Origin: Candidatus Fonsibacter ubiquis
GTDB taxonomy: Bacteria > Pseudomonadota > Alphaproteobacteria > Pelagibacterales > Pelagibacteraceae
Reading direction: 5' to 3'
NCBI RefSeq assembly: GCF_002688585.1
Contig: NZ_CP024034.1
Coordinates: 1,045,501 to 1,109,500 of the forward strand
Length of the DNA: 64,000 nucleotides
A model generated the notes under the pieces. That model did no database searches. It had not been told where the DNA came from and worked only from the letters and a program-made list of their open reading frames with translations. Both the position numbers and the translations under genes were made by a program. Within the stretch, counting starts at the first letter, position 1. The number at the start of each line of letters is the position of its first letter. Below are positions 26,079 through 62,125 of this stretch, in pieces.

Positions 26079-27018
26079 GTTTTGTCTCCGAAATAATAAA
26101 ATTTTCCCCAGCTTTAGATAAAATCTCTTCAGCCACATCGATTCCTATACTTTTTGCTTTTTCTATAATTCCAGTTTTATGAGCTCTGAAAGATTTTTTT
26201 CCATCCAAAGATAACAATTCTGCTTGCAAAAATAACTCGCCGTCATCATTGATAATAGCATTTGCTCCAACAGGAGTATCACAAGCTCCATTTAATGTTT
26301 TTAATAAAGAACGCTCCGCCTCAGCTAAAATTTGTGTTTCTCTATCATTTATGGTTTTTAAAATTTCTTTTAATTCTAAGTCTTCATCTCTACACTGGAC
26401 AGTTACTATTCCTTGTCCAGCAGATGGTATAACTACATCTTTCTCAAAATATTCCCTTACTTCAGTATGAAATCCTAATCTTTTTAATCCTGATGCTGCA
26501 AGCACTATGGAGTCATAAATTCCCTCTTTCATCTTATTAATTCTGGTATCGATATTTCCTCTTATAGGAACAATTTTTAGATCATTTCGAAGTCTTTTTA
26601 ATTGCGAAAATCTTCTCACTGAACAAGTCCCAACTGTAGATCCTGATTTTAAGTTGGCAAATGAACTTGCAATTGGAGATAAAAACGCATCTCGCTCATC
26701 TGTTCTTTTTAAAAAACAAGCAAGAGATAATTTATTTGATGAAAAAGTTGGTACATCTTTTAATGAGTGCACAGCAACATCAATTGATTTTTCTAACAAA
26801 GACTCTTCCAACTCTTTAACAAAAAGTCCTTTACCTCCCATCATTCCTAAATTTTCTGTTTTAAATTTATCGCCTGAAGTTTTTATAATTTTAATAATAA
26901 GTTGCTCAGCTTTTACTCCAGGATAAGCAAGCAAAAGTTCGTCTCGAAGATGTTCAGTTTGCGCAAGGGATAGTCTGCTGCCTCTGGTTCCTATGATAAT
27001 ATTTCTATTTCTTAACAT
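26047..27018 (-). CDS. hemC: hydroxymethylbilane synthase (porphobilinogen deaminase)
   Basis: The 323-residue enzyme that polymerises four porphobilinogens. Readable motifs: IIGTRGSRLSLAQTEHL at the N-terminus, VAVHSLKDVPT, GTCSVRRFSQL, VPIRGNIDTRI and the dipyrromethane-cofactor Cys in NGACDTPVGA. It is transcribed divergently from tsaD with a spacer of 76 bp that includes two direct copies of CATTTTGCTG. The hemC-tsaD divergent pair is common in alphaproteobacteria. Confidence 0.96.
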   Translation of the reverse strand: MLRNRNIIIGTRGSRLSLAQTEHLRDELLLAYPGVKAEQLIIKIIKTSGDKFKTENLGMMGGKGLFVKELEESLLEKSIDVAVHSLKDVPTFSSNKLSLACFLKRTDERDAFLSPIASSFANLKSGSTVGTCSVRRFSQLKRLRNDLKIVPIRGNIDTRINKMKEGIYDSIVLAASGLKRLGFHTEVREYFEKDVVIPSAGQGIVTVQCRDEDLELKEILKTINDRETQILAEAERSLLKTLNGACDTPVGANAIINDDGELFLQAELLSLDGKKSFRAHKTGIIEKAKSIGIDVAEEILSKAGENFIISETKLAHTIHKKSE

Positions 27019-38305: not shown

Positions 38306-39022
38306 TTAAAAAAATTTTTGAAATAGAATTCTTAAATAATCATATTTAGCATAATTACGCCTTGTGAAGATACTATTATATATTTTATGTAATGGTTGCT
38401 CATAATTAATTTTTTTGTATATATATTTTTCATCAATTTCTTTCATTACAACATCTTCTAAAGAGCAAACTTGCTTATTTTTAAATTTTTTTAAAAAAAA
38501 GGAGATCCAAAAATCATCATTCAAAAAACAATATTTATAATTTTTAACGTATTTATTATAAAAATCTAAAATTCCCTCTAAATGATTAGAATTTATTAAA
38601 AATCCATCAGCTCCTTGCCCCATTACTAAATCATAAATTTTTACGGTAAAAAAACTATAAGCTTGTTCTTTATTAAATCTAAAATATTTATTCAAAATTT
38701 CACACATTCTTGGATGATAAATATGGTCATCATCAACTAATATTACGTAATCAAAATTTTTTAATAAACTAATAGATCCTAGAAGTTTTGTGCCTGGGCC
38801 ATAATCTTTACATCTAATGATCTTAAAATTATCATCTTTTATGTCTTTAAAAATATCGATATTTACATCTTTAATTTCAGGAAACCTTTCATAAGAAAAA
38901 GGTATATTTAAAAAAATATTGTCAGGTCTTATTGTTTGTTTATTTAAAGAATTTATAACTTCCTTTACGCTTTGAAATCTCGAAGGAATACTGCTTAAAG
39001 AGATGCAGAATTTTTCTTGCAT
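38306..39022 (-). CDS. putative glycosyltransferase-like protein
   Basis: A 238-residue protein with a GT-A-like layout: CISLSSIPSRFQSVKEVINSL near the start (in outline), then NFDYVILVDDDHIYHPRM with a DxD-type DDD at about residues 96-98, and a late FLNDDFWISFFLKK acidic motif. No signal peptide or membrane helix. It probably transfers a sugar in surface glycan synthesis, but no specific family was recognised. It lies next to the FkbM-type gene, between phhB and the tRNA-Gly gene, and looks accessory. Confidence 0.6.
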   Translation of the reverse strand: MQEKFCISLSSIPSRFQSVKEVINSLNKQTIRPDNIFLNIPFSYERFPEIKDVNIDIFKDIKDDNFKIIRCKDYGPGTKLLGSISLLKNFDYVILVDDDHIYHPRMCEILNKYFRFNKEQAYSFFTVKIYDLVMGQGADGFLINSNHLEGILDFYNKYVKNYKYCFLNDDFWISFFLKKFKNKQVCSLEDVVMKEIDEKYIYKKINYEQPLHKIYNSIFTRRNYAKYDYLRILFQKFF

Positions 39023-39025
39023 TCT

Positions 39026-39853
39026 TTAATTAATATCAAATTTTGAATTTATGTACCAATCATCAAATTGACTCAAATTTTTAAATTTTCTTACAAAGCC
39101 TTTTTGGGTTAATAAATTAAATATTTTTTGTCTATTTTTAGTAAAATTATGCTCACAGGTAATTATTTTAAAAGTAAACATGCTAAAATTAAAATTTTTT
39201 AAAATTTCAAATTCACTTCCCTCAGTATCAATCGATAAATAATCAATTATTTTTGGCGCTTTATATTTTTTTAATAAGTCGATTAATGAAATTGTATTTA
39301 GATTATACTGTCTATACTTTTTGCTCCTTCTTTTGGACCAATTGTCAGAATTAGAAAATTTACTAATTGTAGATAAATCTGGGATAGATGTTTCTTTAAA
39401 TTGAAGATTTTGGTTAGATACTTTCCAAATAATTCTTTTTTCAATAACACAATGTCGGTTAAGGGTTAATTTTTTATGAAAAATTTTTGCAGGTTCAGAT
39501 ATGATACCTTTCCACTTGAAATTTTTTTCTAAAATATAAGTATTTGATAATTTAAATCCATCAGCAGCACCAAATTCGACAAAAAAACCTTTTTTTTTGA
39601 AATTTAATTGTGATAATACAAACAAATCTTGCCTTAGTTGGGATCTAGAAATAGGCAAGTACCGTAATATTTCTCCAGCTTTTTTTGGGAAGTGTTTAGT
39701 AAACAATAAATCAAATTTTAATTTATCATTCTCAGCAATTAGTTCATTATAATTTGAACGTTTAAGTATCTTTAAGTTAAAAATTTTCAATTTTTGTTTA
39801 TTTGCAATTTTTTGATAAGTTTTTATTACAAATACTAAAAAACTATTTACCAA
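39026..39853 (-). CDS. FkbM-type methyltransferase
   Basis: A 275-residue SAM-dependent methyltransferase of the FkbM type. Motif I reads FFVEFGAADGFKLSNTYILE, followed by WKGIISEPAKIF, then DYLSIDTEGSEFEILKNF and ITCEHNF, the characteristic FkbM elements. Such enzymes often methylate glycans. The start is a TTG at 39,853 with no ATG before the core. It is 3 bp upstream of the glycosyltransferase-like gene, so both form an operon. It lies on the 3' side of the tRNA-Gly gene. Confidence 0.85.
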   Translation of the reverse strand: MVNSFLVFVIKTYQKIANKQKLKIFNLKILKRSNYNELIAENDKLKFDLLFTKHFPKKAGEILRYLPISRSQLRQDLFVLSQLNFKKKGFFVEFGAADGFKLSNTYILEKNFKWKGIISEPAKIFHKKLTLNRHCVIEKRIIWKVSNQNLQFKETSIPDLSTISKFSNSDNWSKRRSKKYRQYNLNTISLIDLLKKYKAPKIIDYLSIDTEGSEFEILKNFNFSMFTFKIITCEHNFTKNRQKIFNLLTQKGFVRKFKNLSQFDDWYINSKFDIN

Positions 39854-42506: not shown

Positions 42507-43519
42507 TAATTTATTAAATATTTTTTAACAATATGTTCCATCATTTGGATATGGTCATCATTGTCATTTAGGCAGGGTACAACATCATAATTTTCTCCGC
42601 CACTTTCTAAAAAGCTTTCTTTGCCCTGAATTGCTATTTCCTCTAAAGTTTCAACACAATCTGATGAAAAGCCCGGACAAATCATAAGTACATTTTTTTT
42701 GCCTTTCGACGGAAGTTCTTCTAAAGTTTTATCCGTATAAGGCGTTAACCATTCTTCTGGTCCAAATCTAGATTGAAAAGTGGTCTCAATGGGTATGTCT
42801 TTAAATTTTTCCTTTATAAGTCGTGTGGTTTTTTGACAATAGCAATGATATGGGTCTCCTTTAGTAAAATATTTTTTTGGTATCCCGTGGTAAGAAGCTA
42901 AAATTAAATCTGGCTTCCATTTAATTTCTAAAATTTTCTTTTTTATACTGTTTACAAGAGCATCAATAAAAAGGGGCTCAGATTCGTAATGGGGGATAGT
43001 TTGTAAACTAGGTTGCCACCTCATCTTGATTAAGTTTCTGTATACTTCATCACATACAGTTGCTGTAGTTGCTGCCGCATACTGTGGATACAGTGGAAAA
43101 ACAATAATTTTTTCGCACCCTTCTTTTTGCAAAAGATCTAACTTGCTTTTAATGCTCGGATTTCCATAACGCATTGCAAAATCTACAAGAATAAAATTGT
43201 TGCCTATTCTTTTGTTTAGTTTGTTGGTTTGACTTTTTGTATAATATCTTAGTGGAGATTCATTGGTTTCTTTCATCCAAATTTGCTTATAAGCATGCGC
43301 TGTTTTTGCTGGTCTAAAGGTTAATATAAATAAATTTAAAATTATTTGCCAAAGAATTGGATTAACCTCTATGACTCTGGTGTCTGATAAAAATTCTTTT
43401 AAATATCTTCTAATATCCCACCAACTAGTCGAATCTGGAGTCCCAAGATTAACAAGCAAGACGCCAGTTTTTCCAAATTTTACCTTTGGGTGATTAATTT
43501 TATCTAAGTCAAAACTCAT
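42506..43519 (-). CDS. hemH: ferrochelatase
   Basis: A 337-residue ferrochelatase inserting iron into protoporphyrin. Motifs: GVLLVNLGTPDSTSWWDIRRYLKEFL (in outline), MRYGNPSIKS, FPLYPQYAAATTA, the active-site His in ASYHGIPKKYF, and CPGFSSDCVETLEEI. No signal for a [2Fe-2S] C-terminal extension. Its start overlaps the hemE stop by 4 bp. Order E-H-J runs away from the origin. Confidence 0.95.
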   Translation of the reverse strand: MSFDLDKINHPKVKFGKTGVLLVNLGTPDSTSWWDIRRYLKEFLSDTRVIEVNPILWQIILNLFILTFRPAKTAHAYKQIWMKETNESPLRYYTKSQTNKLNKRIGNNFILVDFAMRYGNPSIKSKLDLLQKEGCEKIIVFPLYPQYAAATTATVCDEVYRNLIKMRWQPSLQTIPHYESEPLFIDALVNSIKKKILEIKWKPDLILASYHGIPKKYFTKGDPYHCYCQKTTRLIKEKFKDIPIETTFQSRFGPEEWLTPYTDKTLEELPSKGKKNVLMICPGFSSDCVETLEEIAIQGKESFLESGGENYDVVPCLNDNDDHIQMMEHIVKKYLIN

Positions 43520-44529
43520 AAATTATAACCCCTTACGAACTCAACTAATTTTTTAACATTTTCTGGATTTGTTTGCGGCAAAATTCCATGGCCCAAATTA
43601 AAAATATAAGGCCTGTTTTTAAAAAAATCTAAATATCTCTTTGCTTCTTTAAACATTCTTTGCTGACTTCCTAATAAAAATTTTGGGTTTAAACCGCCTT
43701 GAAAAACTACATTATTATTTAAATTTAAATCATTAAGACTTATATCATAATCAAGATTAATACCGTCTGGGGCCACCTCTCTTATAAAAGCGTTAATATT
43801 CTTCTTTATTCCTTTTGGAAAACACACAACTCCCTTACTAGGAAATTCTTTCTTAATTTTTTTAACAATATTTTTATTTGGATTAATACAAAATTGTTTT
43901 AAATCTTTCTTATCTATTAGACCCGACCAACTATCAAATAATTGTATAACGTCTGCCCCGGCCAGTATTTGCTCTTTACAGTGGATATAAACTAAATTTT
44001 CTAATCTCTTTAATATTTTTAATATCTCCTCTTTTTTTAAATTTACTAATAATTTCCTATTTCCTTTTGGTGAACTTTTATTAATCATATAAACTAGTAG
44101 TGTCCACGGCGCTCCAGCAAATCCAATTAAAGATTTTTCTTTGGGTAATTTTTTTCTTATATTTTTTATTATTTGATAAATATTTTTTAATTTTTTTATA
44201 AAATCTTCTTTGCTTAAATTATAAAATATCTCGGGTTTATAATTTTCTAGAACTGGGCCTATATTTTCTTTAAATTTTATATTTTGTCCCGCTGCTTTTA
44301 AAATTAATAAAATATCCGAAAATACAATTGCTGCATCTAAATTGTATCTTTCTATAGGTTGTAAAGAGACTTTCGTTGCGTTTTTAATATTTAAGCAAAA
44401 ATTAATAAAATTTTTATTTTTTTTTCTAATTATTTTATATTCAGGCAAATATCTACCTGCTTGCCTCATAAACCAAATAGGTAAATTTTTTTTTTTAAAT
44501 ATTAGGCTTTTCTGAAGAGAACTACTCAT
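43516..44529 (-). CDS. hemE: uroporphyrinogen decarboxylase
   Basis: A 337-residue enzyme decarboxylating uroporphyrinogen III to coproporphyrinogen III. The signature WFMRQAGRYLPEYK lies at the N-terminus, with Asp in AAIVFSDIL, IGFAGAPWTLLVYM, VIQLFDSWSG and NLGHGILPQTNPE later. It is the first leftward gene from the probable origin; hemE flanks the origin in Caulobacter and other alphaproteobacteria (established). Confidence 0.96.
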   Translation of the reverse strand: MSSSLQKSLIFKKKNLPIWFMRQAGRYLPEYKIIRKKNKNFINFCLNIKNATKVSLQPIERYNLDAAIVFSDILLILKAAGQNIKFKENIGPVLENYKPEIFYNLSKEDFIKKLKNIYQIIKNIRKKLPKEKSLIGFAGAPWTLLVYMINKSSPKGNRKLLVNLKKEEILKILKRLENLVYIHCKEQILAGADVIQLFDSWSGLIDKKDLKQFCINPNKNIVKKIKKEFPSKGVVCFPKGIKKNINAFIREVAPDGINLDYDISLNDLNLNNNVVFQGGLNPKFLLGSQQRMFKEAKRYLDFFKNRPYIFNLGHGILPQTNPENVKKLVEFVRGYNL

Positions 44530-44805
44530 TAATAAATATTAGTTAAAATATTAGTAGTATATGGTTATGTTAGTAGTGTGTTTATATTTTTATCAACAGT
44601 TTATTAACAGAATTTGTTAGTAAAAATATCAACCTAACTTTTAATTTATAACAGTAATACGAAGTTATTAACAATATTCAAATAAACACAAACAAACTTA
44701 TTAATGTTATTAATTAAATAACAATAATTTATTAACTGTTAACCCTTTCTAATTTTAAAGTTAAAAATGTATAAAGAATAATTATAAAGATTTTTCCACA
44801 GTCTT
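44530..44805. other. probable chromosomal replication origin (oriC)
   Basis: A 276-bp non-coding, very AT-rich spacer between hemE and ppsR, the site of Caulobacter Cori and other alphaproteobacterial origins. DnaA-box-like 9-mers: TTATCAACA (44,590) and TTATTAACA (44,601), which form an 11-bp phased direct repeat TTTATYAACAG, TTATTAACA again (44,665), TTATTAACT (44,729), and TTTTCCACA (44,792), an exact match to TTWTNCACA just before ppsR. Flanking genes diverge. Lengthy A/T runs could serve as the unwinding element. No functional test is implied. Confidence 0.78.
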
Positions 44806-45621
44806 ATGAACAGAAAATATAACGTTTTTTTAGTATCCGACTCGACCGGCGAAACCTTAGATAGAATATTTCTTGCGTTAAAAGCTCAATTTGAAAACTT
44901 TAATAATTCTCTCCACCATTTTTCTTTTGTTAGAACGGATGCGCAAATCACAACATTATTAGAAAAATGTAACAAAGTAGAAAACCCAATTGTTTTATAT
45001 ACGCTTGTGGAATCTTCAATTACTTCATTCTTAACTCAAGAAACAGAGCGATATAAAATTCCATGTTTTGGAGTTTTAGATTATTTAATTCCAAAATTTG
45101 AAACAGTTCTAAATCGTAAAGCAAATCGAAAACCAAGCGGTCAGCATATTCTAAATAAGGAATATTATAGAAAAATTGCAGCTATGCAGTTTAGTATTGA
45201 ACATGATGATGGCCAAAAATTAGAAACAATTTTAGAGTCAGATATAATTATTTTGGGAATAAGCAGAACTAGCAAAACCCCAACAACCATCTATCTTGCA
45301 AATAGAGGATATAAAGCCGCAAATATCCCAATGATTCCCAATCAAAGAATATCCGAAGATGTGTTAAAAAATAAAAAGAAGACAATCGTTGGCTTGATTG
45401 CTGATCCAGAAAGGTTGGTCGATATTAGAAAAAATAGGTTGAATACATTAAGCGAAGAAAAACACACTTCGTATGTTGATTTAGATAAAATTAAAGAAGA
45501 ATTAGAAGAAAGTAAAAAAATATTTAAATTAAACAATATTCCAATAATTGATGTAACCAGAAAGTCAGTAGAAGAAACAGCCGCGTCCATAATTAAAATT
45601 CATGAGATAAAAAATAGTTAA
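44806..45621 (+). CDS. ppsR: PEP synthase regulatory protein / kinase-pyrophosphorylase (DUF299)
   Basis: A 271-residue bifunctional serine/threonine kinase and phosphorylase that regulates PEP synthase or pyruvate phosphate dikinase. The start VFLVSDSTGETLDRIF, the ATP-binding loop ILGISRTSKTPTTIYLA and LIADPERLVDIRKNRL are family marks. First rightward gene from the probable origin, followed without gap by maf. Its own promoter must be in the origin spacer. Confidence 0.93.
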   Translation: MNRKYNVFLVSDSTGETLDRIFLALKAQFENFNNSLHHFSFVRTDAQITTLLEKCNKVENPIVLYTLVESSITSFLTQETERYKIPCFGVLDYLIPKFETVLNRKANRKPSGQHILNKEYYRKIAAMQFSIEHDDGQKLETILESDIIILGISRTSKTPTTIYLANRGYKAANIPMIPNQRISEDVLKNKKKTIVGLIADPERLVDIRKNRLNTLSEEKHTSYVDLDKIKEELEESKKIFKLNNIPIIDVTRKSVEETAASIIKIHEIKNS

Positions 45622-61495: not shown

Positions 61496-62125
61496 ATGGA
61501 TGAAGATATTGATTTTTTTAAGAAAAAATTCAATGTTTCACGTGAAACAATAGAAAAATTAAAAATATATTATAAATTCTTAATAGAAAAAAATAAAACA
61601 CTTAATTTAATTGGTAAAAATACAGAAAAATCAATATTTACAAGGCATTTCAAAGACTCAGCTCAGATATATGATTTAATAGATAAAAAATTAGATATAA
61701 TAGATATAGGTTCTGGAGCTGGATTCCCTGGAATTATCGTAAAAATTCTTATGGAAAATGAAAATTTAAAAGGAAATATTATATTAATAGAAAAAAGTTC
61801 AAAAAAATCGAACTTTTTAAGAGATTTGTGCATAAAACTTGATTTAAAAGTTAAAATTGAGAATAAAAGATTAGAGATTTATGATTTTTTAGAAACTAGC
61901 ACTGTAGTTTCTAGGGCATTCAAATCTACTTTAGATACGATTAATATTCTTTATAGAAACATAAAAAATATTAAAGAGTTAGTTTTGTTAAAAGGGAAAA
62001 CTTATCAACAGGAAATAGATAATGCTAAAAAAAAATATACTTTTGAATTAGAAAAATTTAGAAGCATTACATCGGATGATTCATCTATTATCAAAATCAG
62101 AAACATTAAACTTAATACAACTTAA
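61496..62125 (+). CDS. rsmG: 16S rRNA (guanine-527-N7)-methyltransferase RsmG (GidB)
   Basis: A 209-residue SAM-dependent methyltransferase acting on G527 of 16S rRNA. RHFKDSAQIYDLI, IDIGSGAGFPGIIVKI (motif I), LIEKSSKKSNFLRDL and VVSRAFKSTLDTI are family blocks. Residues 13-18 (NVSRET) are encoded by the parS site. 4 bp after mnmG and 8 bp before parA. Confidence 0.96.
   Translation: MDEDIDFFKKKFNVSRETIEKLKIYYKFLIEKNKTLNLIGKNTEKSIFTRHFKDSAQIYDLIDKKLDIIDIGSGAGFPGIIVKILMENENLKGNIILIEKSSKKSNFLRDLCIKLDLKVKIENKRLEIYDFLETSTVVSRAFKSTLDTINILYRNIKNIKELVLLKGKTYQQEIDNAKKKYTFELEKFRSITSDDSSIIKIRNIKLNTT
61534..61549. promoter_or_regulatory. parS centromere site
   Basis: TGTTTCACGTGAAACA is an exact 16-bp match to the bacterial parS consensus, a perfect palindrome bound by ParB. 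It lies inside rsmG codons 13-18, 600 bp upstream of parA, and about 17 kb from the probable origin. Placement in rsmG is known from other bacteria. No second copy was noticed in the window, though a full search was not run. Confidence 0.95.

Follow-up and report, generated by a model that had tools for sequence, protein, structure and literature searches.

In Ca. Fonsibacter ubiquis LSUCC0530, replication of the chromosome very probably starts in the 276-bp spacer that separates hemE from ppsR. This call has strong support from synteny, a cluster of DnaA boxes, a single parS nearby, GC skew and order-wide conservation. The present study analyzes a window of 64,000 nucleotides, bases 1,045,501–1,109,500 within one 1,160,202-base contig, from this freshwater SAR11 strain (SAR11/LD12), for which a closed genome has been published (PMC6018831). 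The two genes that flank the spacer are divergently oriented and both are confirmed by Pfam, and 3′ of ppsR there follow, by sequence, maf, aroE, coaE, dnaQ, his genes, mnmE, mnmG, rsmG, parA and parB, with Pfam support for maf and aroE. A sequence-only reading had placed an origin in this AT-rich non-coding spacer, noting that the same location holds the origin in Caulobacter and relatives; size, AT content and Pfam assignments all agree with that description, the evidence listed above agrees with the placement, and hemE and ppsR (COG1806) do flank the origin in Caulobacter and Rickettsia (PMC1914354). Its further label of a minimal, degenerate-box origin stands as regards the origin, but “minimal” is incomplete because an unwinding-type module went unnoticed, the TAN run and reverse boxes at 44549–44587 having been missed. 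The element appears to be an ordinary alphaproteobacterial oriC, with an anatomy that is now fuller than in the first account (Table 1). A search of the open-access literature, supplements aside, found no description of the layout of a SAR11 oriC, although a SAR11 origin may be among the predictions in DoriC.

Table 1. Features of the hemE–ppsR spacer and its surroundings, numbered from the first base of the window.
Feature	Position	Strand	Basis
hemE, left flank	43516–44529	-	Pfam PF01208
Putative oriC, entire hemE–ppsR intergenic spacer, 276 bp, 82% AT	44530–44805		AT content, box cluster, family-wide length
DnaA-trio-like run TAT TAG TAG TAT, read 3′→5′ away from boxes	44549–44560	+ (trio strand)	Phase-locked TA steps
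7-nt gap ATGGTTA between trios and first box	44561–44567		Spacer alignment
Trio-proximal weak DnaA box CTACTAACA (+ strand TGTTAGTAG)	44568–44576	-	Spacer alignment
Another weak reverse box ATATAAACA, co-oriented with the first and 11 bp from it	44579–44587	-	1 mismatch to TTATNMACA
DnaA box TTATCAACA, tandem pair member 1	44590–44598	+	Motif match, exact 11-bp tandem
DnaA box TTATTAACA, tandem pair member 2, 11-bp period	44601–44609	+	Motif match, exact tandem
Weak DnaA box TTACTAACA	44615–44623	-	Motif match
DnaA box TTATTAACA	44665–44673	+	Motif match
Weak DnaA box TTAATAACA	44705–44713	-	Motif match
Weak DnaA box TTATTAACT	44729–44737	+	Motif match
Terminal DnaA box TTTTCCACA	44792–44800	+	Motif match, spacer alignment
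Box TTATGAACA overlapping ppsR start codon, partly coding (Met-Asn)	44804–44812	+	Motif match
ppsR (Kinase-PPPase, COG1806-type), right flank	44806–45621	+	Pfam PF03618
Sole genomic parS TGTTTCACGTGAAACA, inside start of rsmG; parA, parB then follow	61534–61549		Genome-wide motif search

AT content was 82.2% in the spacer against 70.0% in the window, thermodynamic instability fell at the 99.98th percentile among the window's 276-mers, and spacer length ranged from 264 to 297 bp across the 28 genomes of the family in which hemE and ppsR are adjacent. The spacer has 3 exact matches to TTATNMACA where dinucleotide shuffles give about 0.2, and the 36 orthologous spacers together have 72 where 6.2 are expected. 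The 9-mers are conserved among relatives. The spacer was the strongest DnaA-box cluster in the 690 kb, or 59% of the genome, that were sampled for the box-cluster, tandem and profile scans. The tandem words TTTATCAACAG (44589–44599) and TTTATTAACAG (44600–44610) follow one another at a period of exactly 11 bp, and such a pair with both boxes exact occurred once in the 690 kb, here. TTATYAACAG is found in 20 copies genome-wide, two of which form the tandem pair while all other pairs are at least 1.5 kb apart; within the genus, seven of eight genomes keep the tandem position, in the form TTATYAACA-NN-TTATTAACA. None of the boxes in the spacer matches TTATCCACA exactly. The tandem at 44,589–44,610, the copies at 44,665 and 44,729 and the box at 44,792 were all verified at the positions first given for them, and the box over the ppsR start codon had gone unseen. 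Most of the order has a terminal box just 5′ of the right-hand gene, which is better seen in the spacer alignment than in the terminal-box tally, where the tie rule favours overlap with the start codon.

Independent markers fall in the same part of the chromosome. The distance from parS to the spacer is 16.7 kb, eight relatives have one parS each (at most 1 mismatch) at about 8–20 kb from their own spacer, and four other relatives yielded no match at that threshold. Cumulative GC skew formed a broad minimum plateau at about 1068–1093 kb, with the raw minimum at 1,072,419 (window position 26919), a weak skew in the left replichore, and a maximum at about 493 kb compared with an antipode at 510 kb (59% of the genome sampled). 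Skew near the spacer was noisy in two complete relatives, with a sign change near the spacer in one, which fits an origin there, and no clear signal in the other, and GC skew alone would place the origin no finer than about 20 kb. A skew minimum had been proposed as a check, and its outcome is mixed, in that the spacer sits on the plateau and no other locus is indicated, but the lowest raw value falls 17.7 kb from it. An alternative explanation could be an origin elsewhere on the 1068–1093 kb plateau or in the parS/parAB region, with the spacer a DnaA-titrating cluster, as the positions of the raw minimum and of parS (window 26919 and 61534) might suggest. However, parS lies kilobases from oriC in related bacteria, the 18-kb offset of the minimum is small against the noise in skew, and the window holds no other box cluster or module match of comparable score, leaving this explanation very improbable indeed. 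An origin at or upstream of dnaA is even harder to credit and would be extremely unlikely. The gene is an origin neighbour in many phyla and the contig was opened there, with dnaA beginning at contig base 10, 70 kb from the spacer, but cumulative skew at dnaA is about 1000 units above its minimum, the region upstream was absent from the top box clusters and had zero module matches in the 690-kb scan, parS is near the spacer rather than dnaA, and in six single-contig genomes dnaA is found about 62–74 kb from the spacer.

The module beside hemE resembles a DnaA-trio element and is shared well beyond this strain. The gap between trios and first box contains a GG/CC cluster in many relatives, the trio-proximal box reads TTACTAACA in most congeners, and a reverse box pair of like kind is present in five congeners too. 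When spacers were aligned on the reverse box (+ strand TGTKRATAA-like) and weighted by genus, with the anchor set by hand in two spacers lying between rho and ppsR, TA steps were phase-locked to this box in 17 genera from two families. Steps at −19, −16, −13, −10 and −7 were present in 92, 67, 74, 76 and 67% of genera, respectively, with TA near zero at most other offsets, and LSUCC0530 has the first four of the five. A 42-bp leave-genus-out profile gave the site 25.4 bits, the top score over both strands of the 690 kb, with a runner-up at 14.1. A pattern fitted to the module had one match genome-wide and zero for a backwards control, which shows uniqueness only, since the fit was made to the module site itself.

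It could be argued that the conserved sequence is merely the divergent promoter and 5′ region of hemE and ppsR and that the boxes reflect AT-rich composition. The spacer is indeed divergent, and the trio run when reversed gives a −10-like TATACT toward hemE, but promoter-like sites were at the shuffled level (4 against 4.0) and the box count was well above that of dinucleotide shuffles. Furthermore, the module outlives its neighbours. In one genus (two complete genomes) hemE has been lost from its place beside the origin and a divergent hemE (31–34% identity) is located far from it; the spacer lies between rho and ppsR with the module, an 11-bp pair and the terminal box still readable. In another SAR11 family no ppsR was found among 24 genomes, the spacer lies between hemE and maf in the six examined, and some modules are even clearer, e.g. 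GTAGTAGTAGTAG-TTGTGCC-TGTG. Survival of the module after loss of hemE in the two genomes and of ppsR in the six means that a promoter of either gene is no explanation, and we regard the promoter reading as very improbable, while noting that promoter and origin functions can coexist in the spacer. Outside SAR11, T[AGT]G runs of at least four units occurred in 10 of 27 hemE–ppsR spacers from other alphaproteobacterial families against 0.0 in shuffles, all on the same strand and on the hemE side (opposite strand 0/27). As a rule a G/C cluster comes next and then a box, for example TGTGGATTA or CGGGGATTA. Recurrence of these runs across families suggests that the trio module is probably ancestral.

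The basal unwinding system (BUS) built on DnaA-trios is defined by NAN trios and co-oriented boxes (PMC8287927). The module has the three or more NAN trios opposite a DnaA box, at most 16 bp away, by which such a system is recognized, here with a gap of 7 nt. The box itself should have no more than 2 mismatches to the species motif, and CTACTAACA has 2 to TTATNMACA, a motif derived from these same spacers, and 4 to the default TTATCCACA, against which it would fail. As in the B. subtilis BUS (PMC8287927, PMC10721633), tandem co-oriented boxes point across a short gap at a TAG-type run on the opposite strand; in contrast to that system, the LSUCC0530 boxes are weak (at least 3 mismatches to TTATCCACA), the gap is 7 nt, and the arrangement is a predicted one. 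Aligned to 8btg, the DnaA of LSUCC0530 carries V in place of the ISM residue I190 and keeps the equivalents of K222 and R264, the three being B. subtilis residues for single-stranded DNA binding and oligomer formation. Alternatively, the spacer may be the origin and its TAN trinucleotides a phase-conserved spacer or the site of some other protein, consistent with the weakness of the trio-proximal box and with the TGG and TTG units that accompany TAG in the runs of other alphaproteobacteria and depart from the published central-A (NAN) rule (PMC8287927). This is unlikely, as orientation, gap, box and period of 3 all fit the BUS definition and 17 genera share a fixed phase relative to the box.

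The analysis shows the position, the enrichment in boxes, the order-wide phase-locked module and the link to parS, with a skew that agrees, whereas DnaA binding, unwinding, the point of initiation and what each box does are inferred from sequence, in the following course. DnaA would dock on the forward boxes (the tandem pair at 44590–44609, 44665 and 44792) and also on the weak reverse boxes at 44579–44587 and 44568–44576, from which a DnaA-ATP filament would grow leftwards onto the + strand TAT-TAG-TAG-TAT, from 44560 to 44549. The filament would open the AT-rich DNA adjoining hemE, the helicase would load, and parS, 16.7 kb off, would then organise segregation. It is possible, and we offer it tentatively, that SAR11 origins have drifted to a near-absence of strong boxes and open mainly via a trio module that is better conserved than the boxes and ancestral to alphaproteobacterial hemE–ppsR origins, in which TGG and TTG units are found too, in this strain with no recognisable CtrA control.

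The abundance of A at the sixth position of the boxes had led to the suggestion that the DnaA of this organism may prefer TTATYAACA. Counts at position 6 of TTATNNACA were A 59, C 8, T 5 and G 0 in the spacers of the family and A 114, T 88, G 36 and C 18 elsewhere in the sampled part of the genome. The ratio of A to C is therefore at background (59:8 against 114:18, Fisher p=0.83), whereas A or C together are enriched over T or G (67:5 against 132:124, p=9e-12); selection thus favours “A or C”, and A has no advantage over C beyond background. In domain IV of DnaA the motifs RSVARPRQ, SLPxIG and GRDHTTV, which we take to include base-contact residues, are as in E. coli (1j1v). Altered specificity was accordingly rejected and the suggestion is not upheld; in the simplest view, a tolerant position has drifted towards AT.

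Compared with the hemE–COG1806 origins of Caulobacter and Rickettsia (PMC1914354), LSUCC0530 has the same flanks, an AT-rich spacer and DnaA boxes, but the spacer is shorter (276 against about 384–404 bp), the boxes are mostly TTATNAACA, and the CtrA site is absent. CtrA sites are often present in hemE-linked origins, without being required, and are sparse in obligate intracellular members (PMC1914354). The CtrA site TTAA-N7-TTAA occurs 0 times in the LSUCC0530 spacer, and none of the five OmpR-type proteins of the genome exceeded the NCBIfam cut-off for CtrA, and on these two grounds a CtrA-controlled origin was rejected here; over the order the site is found in 12 of 36 spacers, 30 in total against 15.6 in mononucleotide shuffles. 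GANTC was likewise counted, with 0 in all 36 Pelagibacterales origin spacers against 5.4 in dinucleotide shuffles (minimum 1 over 100). IHF/HU-type proteins are encoded in the genome and the spacer has one IHF-consensus match, overlapping the tandem pair, with such a match in only 5 of 36 spacers; an IHF reading of the pair was set aside as doubtful, the match needing a C in TTATCAACA that is missing from congeners. The origins of Wolbachia, Ehrlichia and Anaplasma (hemE–COG1253; PMC1914354) offer a parallel for the rearranged SAR11 lineages in that the origin stays by one ancestral flank while the other has moved, with different new neighbours in SAR11, namely rho–ppsR and hemE–maf.

Two stretches of low GC were seen along the contig. 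At window positions 38306–39853, between the purH-like and rho regions, there are two minus-strand genes, glycosyltransferase/methyltransferase-like as judged by eye, with 24% GC, a possible insertion near the origin. At contig positions 174001–194000 GC is just 20% against a genome mean of 29%, and this stretch may, we presume, equal the known hypervariable region.

Few bacterial groups are as abundant as SAR11. With the origin mapped, peak-to-trough estimates of growth can take oriC as their anchor in place of dnaA, which here is about 62–74 kb off. The account of the oriC layout now covers the whole SAR11 order, with a testable prediction of how origins may open in these reduced genomes.
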